In this document: positions 9,632-16,876 of the stretch, piece after piece | Position numbering within the stretch: the first letter of the stretch is position 1 | How the letters are laid out: every line of letters begins with the position of its first letter | Origin: Mycobacterium adipatum | Lineage (GTDB): Bacteria > Actinomycetota > Actinomycetes > Mycobacteriales > Mycobacteriaceae | Direction: 5' to 3' | Length of the DNA: 64,000 bases | NCBI RefSeq assembly: GCF_001644575.1 | Contig: NZ_CP015596.1 | Coordinates: 124,001 to 188,000, forward strand | Made by a program: the position numbers and the translations under genes | The notes under the pieces: generated by a model | Seen by the model: the letters and a program-made list of their open reading frames with translations, nothing else | What the model was told of the DNA's origin: nothing | Databases searched by the model: none

Positions 9632-10798
9632 TCAGCCCAATACCAGCGGTAGCCGCGGCAGCGTGCACGTCGGGGACGGCCAGGTGATCTCCGGGACATA
9701 ACCGGGTTCCAGCCGGAAATCCGTGATGCGGGCCAGCCATTCGGTGACGACGAGCTTGAGTTCCATCCTGGCCAGGTGCGATCCCAGACACCGGTGCGGT
9801 CCCCCGCCGAAACCCCAGTGCTTGTGCAGCTTTCCGTCCAGGACGAAATCGTTGACCGAGTGCTCGTCGCTGCCGTCACGGTTGATCGCAGCGATACACA
9901 GCCGGACATCGGCCCCGGCGGGCAACGTGACGCCGGCGACGGTCACCGGCTCAGTGGTGACGCGACCGACGATCGGGGCCGCCGGTTCCAGCCGGATCAT
10001 CTCCTCGACGAAGACCGCGACCGCGTCGGGGTCGTCCCGCAGCGCCGCACGCAATTCCGGCCTTCGGGCGAGTTCCGCCATTGTCGCCCCGATGGTCGAG
10101 GTGACCGTGTCCAGCCCGGCCAGCACGAACACCATGGACAGCCCGACCGCTTCGTCATCGGTGAGCGGCTCCTCGGCATGCAGCAGATCCGACAAGATTC
10201 CGGGTCTGCGCTGATTTCGCTGCTGGGCAACTGCTTCGGTGAGGTAGGTGAACATCTCGACAGCGGGGGTGAGGTCCACACTGGACGGGTCATCGGTGAG
10301 GCTGAACGCGATGATGGCGTCCTTCCACCCGACGAGTCGGTCTCGGTCTTCCAGCGGCAGCCCGAACAGCGTGAGGAACACCTGTGACGGGTACGGCGTG
10401 GCGAGTTCGGTCATCACCTCGCAGGTGTCCTGTTCTGCGATCCCGTCGATGATGTCGACGGCCTGTGCCTGCAGGGACGGCAGCAGTGCATTCAAGGTCT
10501 GCGGGCTGAAGAATTGGTGCAGGATGCGCCGGTACCGGGTGTGCTCCGGCGGATCGAAACCCAGTGGCACCAAAGGGACCGGGCTGATCATGTCGTCGTA
10601 AGCGATACCGGAGGAGAACACCGCGGGATTGCGCAGCGCGTCGAGCACATCCTCGCGGTGGGTGAGGTAATACCAGCCGTCGCCCCACACGACGGGACCC
10701 AACTCACGTAGCGCGGCCCACCCCACTCCGCGGTCCCGCGTCATCGGCAGATCTTCGTAGCGGACGTGCGGCAGCCCGAGCTCCCCGGCAGCGGTCAT
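9632..10798 (-). CDS. Cytochrome P450
   Basis: A 388-residue bacterial class I P450. The I-helix oxygen-activation motif is AGLDT, the K-helix ExxR lies in EEMIRLEP, and the heme loop FGGGPHRCLG puts the thiolate ligand at about Cys337. ATG 10798 overlaps the stop of the short upstream frame (ATGA), and longer upstream frames show no P450 sequence. It is the last gene of the minus-strand run that contains the membrane and NorQ/NorD-like genes, so it may oxidise the same substrate or its product. No ferredoxin lies beside it; the nearest is at 24.7 kb. Confidence 0.9.
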   Translation of the reverse strand: MTAAGELGLPHVRYEDLPMTRDRGVGWAALRELGPVVWGDGWYYLTHREDVLDALRNPAVFSSGIAYDDMISPVPLVPLGFDPPEHTRYRRILHQFFSPQTLNALLPSLQAQAVDIIDGIAEQDTCEVMTELATPYPSQVFLTLFGLPLEDRDRLVGWKDAIIAFSLTDDPSSVDLTPAVEMFTYLTEAVAQQRNQRRPGILSDLLHAEEPLTDDEAVGLSMVFVLAGLDTVTSTIGATMAELARRPELRAALRDDPDAVAVFVEEMIRLEPAAPIVGRVTTEPVTVAGVTLPAGADVRLCIAAINRDGSDEHSVNDFVLDGKLHKHWGFGGGPHRCLGSHLARMELKLVVTEWLARITDFRLEPGYVPEITWPSPTCTLPRLPLVLG

Positions 10799-11007
10799 GG
10801 CCGGACCAGTCGGCGCGGGCGGACCACGCCGCGATCGAGATGAGTCACCCAACCGGGTTCGGCGTCGCAGACCGCGGGGATGGTGCCGGCCTCGTGGCAC
10901 ACCGGGGCGCCGACGAGTTCCAGGTCGGGTTGTTCGTGGTCGGCGGCGAGGGCGAGGCTGCCGACATTGCCTGTGGCCCATTGAATGACGCGCAGCGGGG
11001 GCGCCAT
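10795..11007 (-). pseudogene. Internally deleted dihydrodipicolinate-reductase-like oxidoreductase
   Basis: The frame encodes only 70 residues. It opens with PLRVIQWATGNVGSLAL, the start of the Rossmann fold of the mycobacterial DHDPR-N-like family, whose members are usually about 350 residues. After residue 40 it switches to GTIPAVCDAEPGWVTHLD, which resembles the C-terminal end of the same family (from memory, NAIPxVCxAxPG near the terminus). About 280 central residues seem to be lost without breaking the frame. It sits between the 133-residue membrane gene (one base gap) and the P450, whose start overlaps its stop. It is unlikely to be an active enzyme but may still carry the P450 by translational coupling. 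Confidence 0.6.
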
Positions 11008-11008
11008 C

Positions 11009-11410
11009 TCAGCCACCCTGTCCGGCAAGGCGGGCCTGCCGCGCCTCGTACCGGTCGACCAGTTCTCGGAAGCCGAGCCGGTCGTACTGCGGGATGGGCT
11101 GGATGCCCCAGATGTCGCGGGCGGTGTCCTTACCCTCGGCACCCTCGGGCGGCCCGAGCGGCGGGTACGGGAACTTGCACTCCAGGGTGTCGTCGGAGTA
11201 CCGAACCTTGAGCAGTTCGCTGCAGATCTGGGTCAGACTCAGGGTCGGGTAGCCGTAATAAACCGCCATGAAGGGCAGCGTGAAGGCGCCCTCCAGTACG
11301 AGTGCGACCAGGCAGACCAACACGGCGCGCTTTATCCATTTGTGCATCCGGGCGTAGTAGGGCGTGGTGCCCGGCGGCAGATCCTCGGTGATCTCTTCGG
11401 TGGTTGTCAC
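11009..11410 (-). CDS. Single-span membrane protein of unknown function
   Basis: A 133-residue protein I do not recognise. An acidic 27-residue N-terminus leads into one hydrophobic helix (about residues 27-50, [14 protein letters not shown] and following). A soluble C-terminal half follows, with two Cys and many Pro ([11 protein letters not shown]) and a charged tail. GTG 11410 has AAGGAG 7 bp upstream. It lies 13 bp downstream of the six-helix membrane gene and is probably translated from the same mRNA, so it is a candidate accessory subunit. The topology is predicted by eye only. Confidence 0.72.
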
Positions 11411-11423
11411 GATGATGCTCCTT

Positions 11424-12113
11424 CTAGTCCGTGAAGATTTCGCGGTTCACCGTGTGTAGGTACGGGATCGCCAGGAACGGGGTGATGTAGAAGATGTCGT
11501 AGAGCCACCAGCCGACGACCGGGAAGATCACGCCGGCGAAGCGGACGTCGGCGAACATCGTCATGTTGAACACATAGATGCACCAGATCAGCACGCCCAT
11601 CCAGCAGGTGACGATCATCCATTGGTGGCCCCAGCGTTTCATCTGCAGGAAGCCGATGGCGGCGGCGCAGCGCATGGCGAAGACCGTGATGATCATGCCG
11701 AACACCATGGACTTCTCACCGGGTCCGGCGGCACCGCCGACCCAGAGTTCGTTGTAATGCCAGAAGTATCCGGCGTCGAACATGTGCCCCCAGCCGACCA
11801 TCAGTACCCGGTTGATCAGGGTGTGGTTGGCGACCAGGTCCAGCGCCCAGCCCAGGCTGTTGAGCATGCCGTCGATGAGCGCCAGGTAGCCGATCAGGGT
11901 GACGATCATCGGACGTACCGACAATCCGGCGCGCTGCGCCTGGCGCTGCAGCCACACCCCGCGCATGAAGATCGGGAAGCCGATCAGTCCGGGCGCCCAC
12001 ATTCCCATCAGGGCGGCGCCGACGATCATCCATTTGTCCGCGCGGCGCTGCGCAAGTCGGGATTGCCCGCCGTGGTCCTCCAGGCCGACGGAGTCCCCGA
12101 CGGCCACACTCAC
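11424..12113 (-). CDS. Six-helix membrane protein, copy A (putative membrane oxidoreductase component)
   Basis: A 229-residue integral membrane protein with about six hydrophobic spans and no family that I can name. Between spans lies [16 protein letters not shown], with His, Asp, His and Glu in a spacing that could bind metal. The same residues occur in the paralogue at 14856-15548. The last 40 residues, ending [12 protein letters not shown], are identical in both copies except for one position. GTG 12113 overlaps the stop of the 43-residue gene upstream (GTGA). The gene is embedded with a NorQ-like ATPase and NorD-like VWA protein, which usually mature metallo-oxidoreductases, so a metal-dependent membrane enzyme is inferred. 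The function is unknown. Confidence 0.78.
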
Positions 12114-12241
12114 AGATACCACCAACCCCGTTCGAAAGACATGTAGAGCTGGATCAGGAACATCGTGAGCAGGTAGCCGTAGATGGCAACCTGAAACACG
12201 ATGAGCGCCCGCTTACGCTTCTTCTCTTTCTGGTCGACCAT
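12110..12241 (-). CDS. 43-residue single-span membrane protein
   Basis: A short gene with a strong AGGAGGGG ribosome site 10 bp before ATG 12241. The product starts with a basic cluster (KEKKRKR, about residues 5-11), continues with one hydrophobic helix (ALIVFQVAIYGYLLTMFLI) and ends FERGWWYL. By the positive-inside rule the N-terminus should face the cytoplasm. It lies 14 bp downstream of the AAA+ ATPase gene and its stop overlaps the start of the six-helix gene (GTGA), which argues that it is really translated. It may be a small subunit of the membrane complex. No homology is recognised. Confidence 0.7.
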   Translation of the reverse strand: MVDQKEKKRKRALIVFQVAIYGYLLTMFLIQLYMSFERGWWYL

Positions 12242-12255
12242 GACGAATTCCCCTC

Positions 12256-13041
12256 CTAGAGTGTGTCGACGGCCAGTAGGCCGGCCGCCGCGATTTCACG
12301 CAGACCTTCACTGATCGCGCCGTCGGTGCTCAGCGGCGCCAGGATGCACGCTTCGGCGGCTTCCACTTCGTTGGCGCCGGCGGCGATGAAGTGGGCGGCG
12401 GTGACGAGAACCCGGGTGGAGGGCGGCTCGAAGTGAAAGGCCTCCTCGGCGGTCCGGATCGCGATGGCGCACCGCACGAGTCGTTGCGCACAGGCAGGGT
12501 CGATGCCCGTCTCTGCGACGATGGCCTGGGCCTCTCTTTCGGGTGGCAGATAGCGCATCGCCACGGTGGCGAACCGCTGTCGGAAGGACGGTTTGAGCTC
12601 CTTGAGTGAGCTGCGGTACGCGGGGTTATAGGAACAGACGAGCATGAACTCGTCGGGCGCGGTGATGACTTCGTCGGCGCGGTCCAGATAGAGGGTGCGG
12701 CGGTGATCGGTGAGAGAGTGCAGGATGGCCAGCGAGTCGTGCCGGGCTTCGACCACCTCATCGAGGTAGCAGATGGCCCCGGCCTTGACAGCTCGGGTGA
12801 GTGGCCCGTCGGTCCAGACGACATCGCCACCGGTGACCATGAACCGGCCGACGAGGTCGGAACTGGTCAGATCGTCATGGCAGCTGATGGTCACCACCGG
12901 CCTGCCCAGCAGCGAGCCCATGTGTTCGACGAAGCGGGTCTTGCCGCAACCGGTGGGTCCGGTGAGCATGACCGGGATCTTGCGCGTGTAGGCCTGCTCG
13001 AAGAGCTGGACCTCATTGCCGTTGGCGAAGTAATTCGTCAT
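12256..13041 (-). CDS. MoxR-type AAA+ ATPase, NorQ/CbbQ-like
   Basis: A 261-residue AAA+ protein with Walker A GPTGCGKT (residues 28-35), Walker B AICYLDE (about 89-95), and a CSYNP segment that fits sensor 1. Size and the LTGPTGCGKTRFVEHM start fit the NorQ/NirQ/CbbQ subgroup. These ATPases work with a VWA-domain partner to remodel or load metal into an oxidoreductase. That partner is the next gene upstream; their junction is an ATGA overlap (13038-13041), so they are probably made in fixed ratio. The client is likely the membrane protein encoded just downstream. NO reductase structural genes are absent here, so a denitrification role is not supported. Confidence 0.85.
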   Translation of the reverse strand: MTNYFANGNEVQLFEQAYTRKIPVMLTGPTGCGKTRFVEHMGSLLGRPVVTISCHDDLTSSDLVGRFMVTGGDVVWTDGPLTRAVKAGAICYLDEVVEARHDSLAILHSLTDHRRTLYLDRADEVITAPDEFMLVCSYNPAYRSSLKELKPSFRQRFATVAMRYLPPEREAQAIVAETGIDPACAQRLVRCAIAIRTAEEAFHFEPPSTRVLVTAAHFIAAGANEVEAAEACILAPLSTDGAISEGLREIAAAGLLAVDTL

Positions 13042-14570
13042 GTGGTGACCAACTCCCTGTGCACATGGGCGAGTACGCGGGGCAATTCTTCGACGCGCCG
13101 GATCCGTTGCGAGCGTCTGGGTCCGAACACTTCGGGCAGCGGGTCCACCCGGGTCGGACCGACACCGACGTAGTAGACCGAGACGCCGGCGTCGTTGGCC
13201 TCCTGCACCGCGTGCGCGGCGTCCGACCATGCGTAGCGACCTTCATAGCCTTCGTCGGAGATCATGCCGTCGCCGATGATGATGAGCAGTCTGCGCTCCG
13301 CCGGCTGGGCCAGCAGCCGGCTGGTCAGGTGCCGGATGGGCGCACCGAGGCGGGTGTAGCCGCCGGTGGTCAGCCCGAGCCCGCTGGGCGGCACGAAGCG
13401 TACCTCCGGAAAATCCTTGAGGCACCGCACTTCCACGCGGTGCCGGGTGTTTCCGGTGAACACGAAGATGCCGTGCCGTTCCCGGGCGTGGGTCATCGCC
13501 CGCGACAGCGCGTCGGCGCAGGCCAACTCCAGCCGGAAGACCCGGCCGCCATGCACGCCCAGTGACGAGCTGCCGTCCAGCAGCAGTGCGGTGCTCACAT
13601 CGCGGTTGCTGGGCAGTAGTTCCCGGAACAGCCGCGGCTCTCCTGCCTCGCCGGTGCGCAGGTCCACGTAATGACGGACGTAGGAGTCGATGTCGATATC
13701 CGAGCCATCCTCCAACCGGTTGATCATGGCGCGGTGGGTGTTCTCCTGGAACCACTTCCGCAGATCGGCAGACATTGTCGTGGCCGCACCGATCCGGCGG
13801 TCGCGGGCGATCTCGACGACGGCCACATGGTCGGGCAGGAACCGCTTCGCCCAGGCATTCCATTCCGGGTACGGGATGCCGGGGCGGTGCTCGGGTGTGA
13901 CGTCCATATCGTTGTCCTGCGGCCTGCTCGGCGGGGGCAGGTTCGGGTTGCGCACTCCACCGTCGCCGCCGACGGGCACCGAATAGGGCCGCGGCATCCG
14001 CTTCTGTGTGGTGGTCCACGGCATCCGGCCGAACTGGCGACGCAACTTGTCGGCCAGCCCGATGGGCGTGGTGTAAACCGCGGGCAGGCTGCCCAGCAGC
14101 GGATGACCGCCGAGAGTCTCCGAGGTGCGGGCCAGTTCGATGGCCCGGCTGATCATGGTGTGGGCGTCCATGTGTGGGTCCGCCGGTGCCAGTTCTGGCA
14201 GCGCACGTGCGAATTCCGCCATCAGCCCCGGCCAGCGCGCGGCGACCCAGCCCAGTGCCACGCCGGCCTCGACGAGGGTGAGCGCACGTATCTCGCGGGC
14301 GGTGAGTTCGTGGACCCGATACTCACCGATCCGGTCTTTGGAGTCCGCGCATTGCAGGGCGATGCCGCAGGTCACCGTGCGCCGGGTCCAGTCCGCGACG
14401 CGTGGCGGAAACGGCACGTGCACATCGGTGCGCGAGTAGTTCAGGCCGAAGCCTCGGTGCGCCCCGGTGACCAGCCGAGCACCCGCTCTGCGCCGGTCGC
14501 TCAGCGCGACGGCGGTCAGCGCGCAACTACGTTCCAGTGCCATCGCCGTGCTGTCGCCGAGGTCGCCCAT
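13038..14570 (-). CDS. VWA-domain activator protein, NorD/CbbO-like
   Basis: A 510-residue cytosolic-looking protein with no signal peptide. The C-terminal third is a von Willebrand A domain with a MIDAS motif DGSSS (residues 332-336) and a later GDGMISDEGYEG segment. The long N-terminal part matches the general layout of NorD/CbbO activators, which bridge an AAA+ ring and a metalloenzyme client. ATG 14570 is chosen because it lies 13 bp after the stop of the small upstream gene; longer frames run through that gene. It overlaps the AAA+ gene by four bases. The client is not known; context points to the membrane proteins on either side. Confidence 0.8.
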   Translation of the reverse strand: MGDLGDSTAMALERSCALTAVALSDRRRAGARLVTGAHRGFGLNYSRTDVHVPFPPRVADWTRRTVTCGIALQCADSKDRIGEYRVHELTAREIRALTLVEAGVALGWVAARWPGLMAEFARALPELAPADPHMDAHTMISRAIELARTSETLGGHPLLGSLPAVYTTPIGLADKLRRQFGRMPWTTTQKRMPRPYSVPVGGDGGVRNPNLPPPSRPQDNDMDVTPEHRPGIPYPEWNAWAKRFLPDHVAVVEIARDRRIGAATTMSADLRKWFQENTHRAMINRLEDGSDIDIDSYVRHYVDLRTGEAGEPRLFRELLPSNRDVSTALLLDGSSSLGVHGGRVFRLELACADALSRAMTHARERHGIFVFTGNTRHRVEVRCLKDFPEVRFVPPSGLGLTTGGYTRLGAPIRHLTSRLLAQPAERRLLIIIGDGMISDEGYEGRYAWSDAAHAVQEANDAGVSVYYVGVGPTRVDPLPEVFGPRRSQRIRRVEELPRVLAHVHRELVTT

Positions 14571-14583
14571 CAGTGCCGCGCGC

Positions 14584-14688
14584 TCAGAAGGTTCCGATAT
14601 TGGAGAACATCCAATACCAGAACCAGATGACCAGGCCGGTGCCGCCCCACGCCGCGACGTAGCGCAGCACTTCCCACAGGTAGTCCAC
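14584..14688 (-). CDS. 34-residue single-span membrane protein
   Basis: A very short gene with GTG start 14688 preceded by AAGGAG at a normal distance. The peptide begins VDYLWEVLRYVAAW and continues as one aromatic-rich helix (GLVIWFWYWMF) ending SNIGTF. It is the first gene of the transcript carrying the VWA and AAA+ genes, and its stop lies 13 bp before the VWA start. A promoter with a TGACT-NN-AGTCA site lies about 100 bp upstream. Good ribosome site, position and composition support a real microprotein. Function unknown. Confidence 0.65.
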   Translation of the reverse strand: MDYLWEVLRYVAAWGGTGLVIWFWYWMFSNIGTF

Positions 14689-14788
14689 GGTGGAATCTCC
14701 TTGTCGAGGTGGCCACAACGGCGAAAGCGCCCGCACAGGAGCCCGTTTGACGCGGACAACGGCGCACCGTTCGGCTCATGATGCTCTG

Positions 14789-14817
14789 TTTCTATCGGAG
14801 TTACTGACTTGAGTCAA
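14789..14817 (-). promoter_or_regulatory. Promoter of the NorQ/NorD-like operon with overlapping operator
   Basis: On the minus strand a TTGACT -35 element (14812-14817) is followed after exactly 17 bp by TAGAAA (14789-14794), a good housekeeping-type promoter. The -35 is overlapped by TGACTTGAGTCA (14805-14816), an inverted repeat TGACT-NN-AGTCA. The same arms recur before the copy B gene at 15555-15566. A repressor bound here would exclude polymerase. The leader to the first start codon is about 95 bp. Confidence 0.65.
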
Positions 14818-14855
14818 TAGAATGACCGCGCGTCGCCTGACGAGATCGGGCAAGG

Positions 14856-15548
14856 TCAATCGGTGAAGATCTCGCGATTGACGGTGTGTAGATAGGGAAT
14901 CGCCAGGAACGGGGTGATGTAGAAGATGTCGTAGAGCCACCAACCCACGACGGGGAAGATGGTTCCCGCGAACCGGACATCGGCGAACATCGTCATGTTG
15001 AAGACGTACAGCACCCAGATCAGCACACCCATCCAGCAGGTGACGATCATCCACTGCTGACCCCAGCGCTTCATCTGCAGGAAGCCGATCGCGGCGGCGA
15101 TCCGCATGGTGAATACCGTGAGGATCATTCCCACTTCCATGGCTTTTTCGCCCGGTCCCGCCGCACCACCGATCCAGAGTTCGTTGAAATGCCAGAAGTA
15201 TCCGGCGTCGAACATGTGACCCCAGCCGTTGAGCAACACCCGCGCCAACAGGGTGTGGCTGCCGATCAGGTCCAGCGCCCATCCGACGGTGTTGATGGCC
15301 GCGTCGATGATGACCAGGTACCCGATCAGGGTGACGATCATCGGGCGCACCGACAATCCGTTGAGGTGCGCGCGACGCAGCAGCCACACCCCGCGCAGGA
15401 ACAGCGGGAGGCCGAAAATTCCCAGTGCCGCAGTGCCGATCAGGATGCTACCGCTGATCAACCACTTGTCCGCCTGGCGTTGAGCCAGCCGCGACTGCTC
15501 GGCGTGTTCGTCGAAGGACAGGGTCGCCGAGGAGGCGGGCGTACGCAT
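14856..15548 (-). CDS. Six-helix membrane protein, copy B (paralogue of 11424-12113)
   Basis: A 230-residue protein with the same six-span pattern as copy A. It has [16 protein letters not shown] in place of A's WHYNELW, and nearly the same C-terminal third. The N-terminal 35 residues differ (MRTPASSATLSFDEHAEQ against [15 protein letters not shown]). Long exact DNA matches between the copies near the 3' ends point to recent duplication or gene conversion. Copy B is in its own transcript, with the shared TGACT-NN-AGTCA site ending only 6 bp before ATG 15548. No clear Shine-Dalgarno is present; TAGAGT 9-14 bp before the ATG could serve a nearly leaderless mRNA. The pair could form a heteromeric membrane complex. 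Function unknown. Confidence 0.76.
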   Translation of the reverse strand: MRTPASSATLSFDEHAEQSRLAQRQADKWLISGSILIGTAALGIFGLPLFLRGVWLLRRAHLNGLSVRPMIVTLIGYLVIIDAAINTVGWALDLIGSHTLLARVLLNGWGHMFDAGYFWHFNELWIGGAAGPGEKAMEVGMILTVFTMRIAAAIGFLQMKRWGQQWMIVTCWMGVLIWVLYVFNMTMFADVRFAGTIFPVVGWWLYDIFYITPFLAIPYLHTVNREIFTD

Positions 15549-15554
15549 GGTGAC

Positions 15555-15566
15555 TGACTCTAGTCA
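15555..15566. promoter_or_regulatory. TGACT-NN-AGTCA operator in front of copy B
   Basis: TGACTCTAGTCA has the same arms and spacing as the site at 14805-14816. It overlaps the putative -10 of the copy B gene and lies 51 bp from the 3' end of the TetR gene at 15617-16219, which is the likely binder. No third copy was found in front of the TetR gene itself. Confidence 0.6.
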
Positions 15567-15616
15567 TTCAAATCGCCCGCCGACAAGACCCCTGCCGCTG
15601 AGAGACCGTCGCGCGC

Positions 15617-16219
15617 TCAGCCCGCAACGACGACGCTGCGCATGGTGCGCTTGACCAGATCCTCGAGCAGGTCGCGTCGCATCGGGTCATTGGTGGTGAT
15701 CGCCAGCGCGTAGAGGCACAACAGGAAGAACACCGCACTGTTCATCGGCTGAACATCGGGATCCACTTCGCCTTTGGACCTCGCCTGCTCGATGCGCTGA
15801 GCCAACAAGAGCACCAGCGAGTGATCGCCGCCGTCCTCCGATTCCGGACGGGTCTGCGAGAAATGCAGCGCCAGAAAGTCTTTGAAGAGAAGGTCACCGA
15901 GCCGGCGCTCCAGTCCCAGAACCAGACGGACCGCTTCGGTCAGTGCCGATTCCAGATCGTGTCCTTTGTCGAGATAGCGGCCGAACTGCTTGGCCATCCG
16001 GTCTTCTTCACGCTTCTCCAGCTCGAGGAGAACGTGCTCCTTGGTGGGGAAATGAAAGAAGAAGGTGCCGTGCGCGACACCGGCCGCGGCCACGATCGCT
16101 GCGACGTCGGCCTCGGCCATCCCGGAGCGCTTGAACTCGGCCACCGCGGCACCCATCAGGCGCTCCCGCGTCTGCAGGCGCTTCGTCTCGCGCGCAGACA
16201 GGCCATTCGCCACCGCCAT
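15617..16219 (-). CDS. TetR-family regulator, likely controller of the membrane/NorQ-NorD-like cluster
   Basis: A 200-residue TetR protein. The N-terminal helix-turn-helix is visible around ETKRLQTRERLMGAAV and VAAIVAAAGVAHGTFFFHF. The C-terminal ligand domain is generic. ATG 16219 opens on MAVANGLSAR; longer upstream frames run antisense through the DJ-1 gene and are not supported. It is upstream of copy B on the same strand, with a 68-bp gap that holds the operator. That places it well to sense the substrate of the system, but the ligand is unknown. Confidence 0.83.
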   Translation of the reverse strand: MAVANGLSARETKRLQTRERLMGAAVAEFKRSGMAEADVAAIVAAAGVAHGTFFFHFPTKEHVLLELEKREEDRMAKQFGRYLDKGHDLESALTEAVRLVLGLERRLGDLLFKDFLALHFSQTRPESEDGGDHSLVLLLAQRIEQARSKGEVDPDVQPMNSAVFFLLCLYALAITTNDPMRRDLLEDLVKRTMRSVVVAG

Positions 16220-16327
16220 ACCCGCTCCGTTTCTGTCCACGCCCCGGTTCGCTTCGACCCTATCGCCTCGGCGCCGCACGGTCGGCGCGATGTTTCGCTG
16301 ACCCGCGGTCGCGGGAATCCCCCCTCG

Positions 16328-16876
16328 ATGACTGACAACACCCTCACCTCGCGGAAGATCGCCATCCTGGCCACCGACGGGGTCGAACGCGCGGAGCTCG
16401 CGGAGCCGCGCCGGGCGATCGACGAGGCCGGCGGAACCACCGAACTGCTGTCCTTGCAGACCGGCGAGATCAGCGCGCGCGAGCACGACCTGGAACCGGC
16501 CGGCAGCTTCACTGTGCAACGGCTGGTCAAAGACGCGACGGTCGACGAGTTCGACGCACTCATCGTCCCCGGCGGCACCGTCAACGCGGACAAGCTGCGC
16601 TCCGATGGCGATGCCGTCGGCTTCGTCCGCGAGTTCGTCAACTCCGGGCGCCCGGTGGCGGTCATCTGCCACGGTCCCTGGACGCTGGTCGAGGCGGGTG
16701 TGGCGAAGGGGCGGACGCTGACGTCCTACCCGAGTCTGCGCACCGACCTCCGCAACGCCGGAGCCACCGTCGTCGACGAGGAGGTCGTGGTGGACGGCAA
16801 CCTCATCACCAGCCGTAACCCCGATGATCTACCGGCGTTCAACGCCGCGATCATCACGGCGTTAGCGCGGCAGTGA
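16328..16876 (+). CDS. DJ-1/PfpI-family protein
   Basis: A 182-residue protein of the PfpI/YhbO branch of the DJ-1 superfamily. The nucleophilic elbow is VICHGPWTL with the reactive cysteine, preceded by ALIVPGGTVNAD. Family members are stress proteins reported as glyoxalase, deglycase or peptidase; the sequence does not decide which. ATG 16328 is chosen because homology begins right there (TSRKIAILATDGVE). It is divergent from the TetR gene (108 bp between starts) and its 3' end overlaps the convergent TenA gene by 23 bp. Confidence 0.85.
   Translation: MTDNTLTSRKIAILATDGVERAELAEPRRAIDEAGGTTELLSLQTGEISAREHDLEPAGSFTVQRLVKDATVDEFDALIVPGGTVNADKLRSDGDAVGFVREFVNSGRPVAVICHGPWTLVEAGVAKGRTLTSYPSLRTDLRNAGATVVDEEVVVDGNLITSRNPDDLPAFNAAIITALARQ

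Follow-up and report, generated by a model that had tools for sequence, protein, structure and literature searches.

A conserved mycobacterial gene set with a NorQ/NorD-type pair suggests a chaperone-dependent membrane enzyme complex

The gene set described here lies in a 64,000-nucleotide (nt) stretch of Mycobacterium adipatum (GCF_001644575.1, NZ_CP015596.1, positions 124,001-188,000 of the forward strand), referred to below as the window. Its seven genes encode two paralogous six-helix membrane proteins (A and B), a NorQ-type MoxR AAA+ ATPase, a NorD-like VWA protein and three small proteins with one helix each. The six-helix proteins resemble the human sterol isomerase EBP, and the ATP-driven NorQ/NorD chaperones are familiar as metal inserters of nitric oxide reductase; this conserved pairing suggests that mycobacteria and their relatives have a membrane enzyme complex dependent on a chaperone. 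We put at about 0.6 the probability that the operon encodes an EXPERA-like enzyme complex of the membrane together with a NorQ/NorD machine of its own for maturation or remodelling. The order of the genes is conserved in related loci, the promoter regions share a palindrome, the ATPase and VWA proteins are homologous to NorQ and NorD, and such genes are linked to the six-helix family in the sampled genomes.

Gene organization and conservation

The host genome is 6.05 Mb in size, and the nearest named relative, judged by the operon, is Mycolicibacterium frederiksbergense (93% identity for six-helix A). All genes named in a first-pass annotation of the window were recovered where it had placed them, on the minus strand. 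The features of the locus, with lengths in amino acids (aa), open reading frames (ORFs) and an AlphaFold2 (AF2) model where used, are as follows.

15617..16219, minus strand: TetR-family regulator (TetR_N, 3.8e-10, in the longer ORF 15617-16672)
15555..15566, no strand: palindromic operator-like site TGACTNNAGTCA, 5' of six-helix A (2 copies in the window vs. 0.03 expected)
14856..15548, minus strand: six-helix membrane protein A, 230 aa, predicted EXPERA-like fold (AF2 model and fold matches)
14805..14816, no strand: palindromic operator-like site TGACTNNAGTCA, 5' of the 34-aa gene (same interval in 14/79 loci)
14584..14688, minus strand: 34-aa one-helix microprotein with the C-terminal end FWYWMFSNIGTF (kept in 80/80 loci)
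13038..14570, minus strand: NorD-like VWA protein, 510 aa, MIDAS DGSSS...T...D (NorD 9qhd, E 2e-31)
12256..13041, minus strand: NorQ-type MoxR AAA+ ATPase, 261 aa (AAA_5 and CbbQ_C; NorQ 9qh4, E 1.6e-77)
12110..12241, minus strand: 43-aa one-helix microprotein (kept in 78/80 loci)
11424..12113, minus strand: six-helix membrane protein B, 229 aa, GTG start, paralogue of A (75% identity)
11009..11410, minus strand: 133-aa protein, single N-terminal helix by sequence inspection (kept in 78/80 loci)
10795..11007, minus strand: remnant of DapB-like reductase genes, 70 codons (alignment to M. frederiksbergense L011)
9632..10798, minus strand: cytochrome P450, possibly of the same pathway (PF00067, 6.8e-24)

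From the 34-aa gene through the 133-aa gene, neighbours either overlapped or were separated by at most 14 bp, which fits one transcript.

A scan of one genome per species yielded 277 stretches with relatives of six-helix A, and the best 80 of these 277 were used. Because this sample was selected on six-helix A alone, the co-occurrence of the remaining six genes is a result and not an artefact of selection, although the sample comprises the nearest relatives. The same seven-gene order, from six-helix A to the 133-aa gene, was found in 77 of the 80 loci, an arrangement beyond chance. Two of the three exceptions, on stretches of only 12.4 and 4.4 kb, contained no more than the first three genes, while in the third (L050) six-helix A stood apart and the remaining genes were inverted. 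Median identities over the best matched segment were 85% for A, 88% for the 34-aa protein, 74% for the VWA protein, 84% for NorQ, 79% for the 43-aa protein, 88% for B and 82% for the 133-aa protein. Since the microproteins were as conserved as the large proteins, their genes are real.

Linkage of the six-helix family to NorQ and its distribution

The six-helix family was detected in nine of 396 genomes drawn from the phylum. Seven of these belonged to the same genus (M. adipatum included), one to another genus of the same family and one, G121, to another class. The G121 locus (L108) consisted of three small ORFs followed by a six-helix gene (41% identity to A), a VWA gene (35%), a NorQ gene (49-50%) and an APH-type kinase gene. 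NorQ-type genes were then surveyed in 150 genomes of the order at a threshold of E 1e-45, with neighbourhoods read by hand and, in most genomes, only part of the first-look candidates scored (about 17 at most). In all ten family-bearing genomes among them, NorQ was found beside the six-helix family. The linkage that the annotation had expected a neighbourhood survey to reveal was thus observed, both in the order and in G121. Together with the distant row in G121 at 35-50% identity, it makes the six-helix proteins, alone or as a complex with the small proteins, the likeliest client of the pair, as had been proposed.

The small proteins were followed into the distant loci by profile searches. 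The 34-aa profile ranked a small ORF of L108 first, with a weak E of 0.03; this ORF ends in WNWMMSHFGTF, and the ending shared by both is W.WM.S..GTF. The first match of the 133-aa profile was also a small ORF of L108 (E 0.29, weak) and the second, equally weak, was an ORF before the six-helix gene of Mycobacterium branderi (E 0.5). Weak as their scores are, these matches fall in the expected places. The 43-aa profile gave no match at the corresponding place. The M. branderi ORF (L107:14735-14983) encodes an 82-aa protein before a solo six-helix gene on a plasmid, and its C-terminal helix is similar to the one in the 133-aa protein. This plasmid copy of the six-helix gene showed 33% identity, and no NorQ match was found on that record. 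Some members of the family therefore do without a NorQ/NorD pair or rely on one encoded elsewhere.

In G050 the operon contained a single six-helix gene. Phylogenetic analysis separated A and B of mycobacteria into two clades (supports 100/97 and 100/99), which were joined at 93/86 with G050 outside. The second six-helix copy therefore probably arose by a later duplication.

The NorQ/NorD-type pair

The NorQ protein matched PF07728 (AAA_5; 122.2 bits, E 2.1e-35, cut-off 22) and PF08406 (CbbQ_C; 74 bits, E 1.1e-20, cut-off 20.6). Its closest solved relative was NorQ (9qh4) over residues 4-253 of 261, followed by long multi-AAA midasin chains (5.7e-73), another NorQ (1.9e-71) and the CbbQ-type structures 5c3c (2.9e-66) and 6l1q (9e-66). 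The VWA protein matched solved NorD (9qhd) over residues 223-508. Its DGSSS, YTRLG and GDG segments aligned with the corresponding parts of NorD, so that the MIDAS motif, defined as DxSxS-T-D (PMC9976466), is complete. The activators that had been called NorQ/NorD-like are hence a genuine NorQ/NorD-type pair.

With the NorQ/NorD pair of the cytochrome c nitric oxide reductase cNOR (9qh4, 9qhd), the locus shares the NorQ and VWA matches, the MIDAS residues and an arrangement in adjacent, overlapping genes. Unlike the cNOR proteins, however, the first ~220 residues of the VWA protein, where the NorD-type N-terminal domain would lie, remained unmatched. The likely client also differs, being a small six-helix protein in a run without NorB or NorC. 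No NOR gene was found among the seven conserved genes, to which the search for NOR was confined. To our knowledge, MoxR/VWA pairs are widespread, yet few of their clients are known.

The six-helix proteins

A and B share the (Y/F)NELW-containing stretch pointed out by the first-pass annotation, and their 75% identity bears out its description of two paralogues. The AF2 model of A (pLDDT 87.4, pTM 0.85) had its best fold matches in EBP (6oht) and the sigma-2 receptor/TMEM97 (7mfi), covering 167 of 206 residues of EBP and 152 of 164 of the sigma-2 receptor. At the level of this model, the six-helix proteins probably adopt the EXPERA fold. The window proteins had no match to PF05241 (EXPERA) at E up to 1; the best score among distant six-helix relatives was 7.9e-4, which is below the gathering cut-off, and a scan of 201 genomes with PF05241 gave a single match over the cut-off (in G741) and none at this locus.

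The family thus resembles the EXPERA proteins EBP and sigma-2 receptor in its best fold matches and in the sub-cut-off scores of distant relatives. It differs from EBP in an extra N-terminal helix ahead of the EBP-aligned part, and from EXPERA proteins as a whole in staying below the Pfam cut-off and in having its own invariant residues D82, N86, W90, D93, D114, E134 and R192. The catalytic residues of EBP are H76, E80, E122 and N193; the comparison of the six-helix proteins with EBP holds at the fold level only. A clear hit to a characterised family with another job had been named as evidence against the annotated client role. The fold does point to such a group, but too weakly for membership.

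Residues were counted in 75 members of the six-helix family. Identical in all 75 were D27, R68, D82, N86, W90, D93, D114, Y117, E134, W162, Y181, R192 and W204; R149 was R in 72 and K in three, and H98 was H in 70. In the shared stretch, the first histidine (H111) was H in only 4/75 and the second (H120) in 47/75. A histidine-based metal site is therefore no feature of the family, and the suggestion that the stretch could bind metal is not supported as far as it rests on the histidines.

The annotation had also known of no described system with this gene set. We found no title or abstract on a linkage of six-helix proteins to NorQ/NorD, but PF05241 was already recorded in mycobacteria (PMC9903846) and EBP-like genes in a genomic island (PMC4818103); neither the PF05241 passage of the former nor the EBP-like passage of the latter names NorQ or NorD.

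Regulator and promoter palindrome

In 58/77 loci, a relative of the TetR gene was located upstream of six-helix A, at most 3 kb away. The two copies of TGACTNNAGTCA in the window were not reproduced in any of 100 shuffles. Across 79 related loci, with the rearranged L050 excluded, 137 copies were counted, of which 55 were before the TetR relative, 67 preceded A, 14 fell in the interval from A to the 34-aa gene and only one lay elsewhere; 62 of the 79 loci had the site before A. Of nine control palindromes, eight had no copies in these loci and one had three copies, all elsewhere. A scan of the M. adipatum genome with the longer form of TGACTNNAGTCA revealed no further site with up to one mismatch, and matches with two mismatches were as numerous as those of the reversed control. 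By this distribution, six-helix A and the NorQ/NorD unit belong to a single small regulon; the TetR protein presumably binds TGACTNNAGTCA.

A COX3/NorE-like gene (L073:8951-9577; PF00510, 1.8e-10) was observed just 5' of six-helix A in Mycobacterium triplex. The remaining loci had no relative of it except L044 and L048, in which one lay on the opposite strand ~2.5-3 kb before A.

Downstream enzymes

The P450 had been counted as part of the same run. It is indeed present downstream, but separated from the run by the DapB-like remnant. This remnant aligned to two separate places of the M. frederiksbergense locus L011, with ~1.9 kb between them missing in M. adipatum and the join near 10885-10889; two reductase genes are involved, and DapB_N was matched in relatives. 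The deletion suggests that the M. adipatum strain may have lost a pathway step. In relatives, a DapB-like reductase followed right after the 133-aa gene in 31/77 loci, a P450 match lay downstream of the run at a distance of up to 6 kb in 66/77, and an apparent short-chain dehydrogenase/reductase (SDR) and other enzymes were also located downstream (labels by eye). The 133-aa protein itself matched no Pfam family over the cut-off. The DapB-like, P450 and apparent SDR genes fit redox work on a hydrophobic ring compound.

Proposed function and alternatives

We propose that the TetR-controlled operon encodes a membrane complex whose core would be one or two EXPERA-like six-helix proteins, with the three single-helix proteins as stable subunits. 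Physical association of these proteins, like contact between NorQ/NorD and the six-helix client, is inferred. The substrate would be a hydrophobic compound of the ring type, such as a sterol, a terpenoid or a lipid, and the complex would share its pathway with P450, SDR and DapB-like enzymes. It is probably an enzyme rather than a carrier; that the substrate is sterol-like seems to us somewhat short of an even chance. NorQ and NorD would form its dedicated maturation or remodelling machine. In the maturation of cNOR, NorD is thought to grip the client via its MIDAS and NorQ-driven motion to open up the iron site (PMC9976466, PMC13036017). By analogy, NorD may grip the complex via its MIDAS site and a NorQ hexamer, using ATP, may twist NorD, so that the client opens and lets a cofactor, subunit or substrate in or out. 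Metal insertion is only a tentative candidate for this step.

The system offers a NorQ/NorD pair whose candidate client in the membrane is small and defined, along with microproteins conserved as its partners and a palindrome at the promoters, all in growable organisms. It could tell whether NorQ/NorD are metal inserters or general remodelers of membrane complexes, and could assign a function to a bacterial EXPERA-like protein.

Among the alternatives, a metalloenzyme complex, in which NorQ/NorD put iron or another metal into a candidate carboxylate site of the six-helix proteins as with FeB in cNOR, fares best, unlikely as we consider it. Insertion of non-heme iron is the studied role of NorQ/NorD (PMC9976466, PMC13036017), and the acidic residues D27, D82, D93, D114 and E134 as well as, nearly always, H98 would be available in the family. 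The variability of H111 and H120 argues against it, and the related pair CbbQ/CbbO does non-metal work, on Rubisco. The gas-vesicle protein GvpN is another related non-metal example.

Slightly less probable again is a sterol or lipid carrier or sensor, in which the six-helix proteins would take up lipids and hand them on, as the sigma-2 receptor does, with NorQ/NorD driving release. The second fold match of the model, a cholesterol-bound sigma-2 receptor, and Mce-like genes near L108 (label by eye) are in agreement with such a role. However, the recurring neighbours look like oxidoreductases (by eye except for DapB-like and P450), and the seven conserved genes include no transport ATPase or binding protein.

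It is improbable that the true client of NorQ/NorD is a different protein encoded nearby (the 133-aa protein, the P450 or the reductase) and that the six-helix proteins are mere neighbours. The 133-aa protein is linked as tightly as six-helix B (78/80), but the P450 and the DapB-like reductase are less constant, in the distant L108 it is the six-helix protein that can still be recognised beside NorQ/NorD, and the remaining sampled NorQ-type genes also adjoin polytopic membrane proteins, which are AveC-like. Finally, a relative of the AmoC/PmoC copper monooxygenases, a kinship that the annotation touched on through the WGHxF likeness but considered too short to prove, has next to no probability and is disfavoured, since none of the 23 members scanned with an E limit of 10 matched PF04896, the motif histidine is variable and no AmoA/AmoB-like Pfam match occurred among the genes of the run.

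A second NorQ/VWA setting: AveC-like proteins

The M. adipatum genome contains a second NorQ/VWA pair (L110:6486-10080; C1, ~884.5-888.1 kb) that immediately follows the gene of an AveC-like membrane protein (PF17198, E 1.1e-96). AveC, the namesake of this family, has a known reaction, and the Pfam name is spirocyclase. Like the locus in the window, it combines a polytopic membrane protein with a NorQ and a VWA gene, which here follow immediately. The AveC-like and six-helix families showed no sequence relation by hhalign. Among the candidates scored in the survey of the order, 28 NorQ-type genes were found in 13 genomes: 10 were beside the six-helix family, 17 were within ~3 kb of an AveC-like gene and one was beside neither. 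Twelve genomes account for the 27 family-linked genes; 11 of them belong to the genus of M. adipatum and the twelfth to a second genus. Conversely, of 29 AveC-like genes in the 150 genomes, 19 were near such a NorQ and 10 were not. The constant neighbours of NorQ/NorD in these two genera are the six-helix and AveC-like families (NOR genes were not sought). The AveC-like locus offers a second test of the NorQ/NorD role in the same genome. It is conceivable, if on the unlikely side, that in mycobacteria and relatives the EXPERA-like complex and the AveC-like proteins represent a class of membrane enzymes whose activity depends on prior ATP-driven maturation by dedicated NorQ/NorD pairs, perhaps by metal insertion. 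In that case, a fold like that of sterol isomerase would have become a catalyst of ring chemistry that needs a chaperone and possibly uses metal.

The NorQ gene beside neither family (L156; G623:C98, NorQ at 66307) adjoined a VWA gene, a 487-aa ORF that matched no Pfam family at E 0.001 and, by eye, an apparent ABC transporter. A conserved D-x-x-x-N pattern was observed by eye, without profile kinship, in both NorQ-linked membrane families, at D82/N86 of the six-helix proteins and at D114/N118 of the AveC-like protein (L110:6486-7664, alignment A5).
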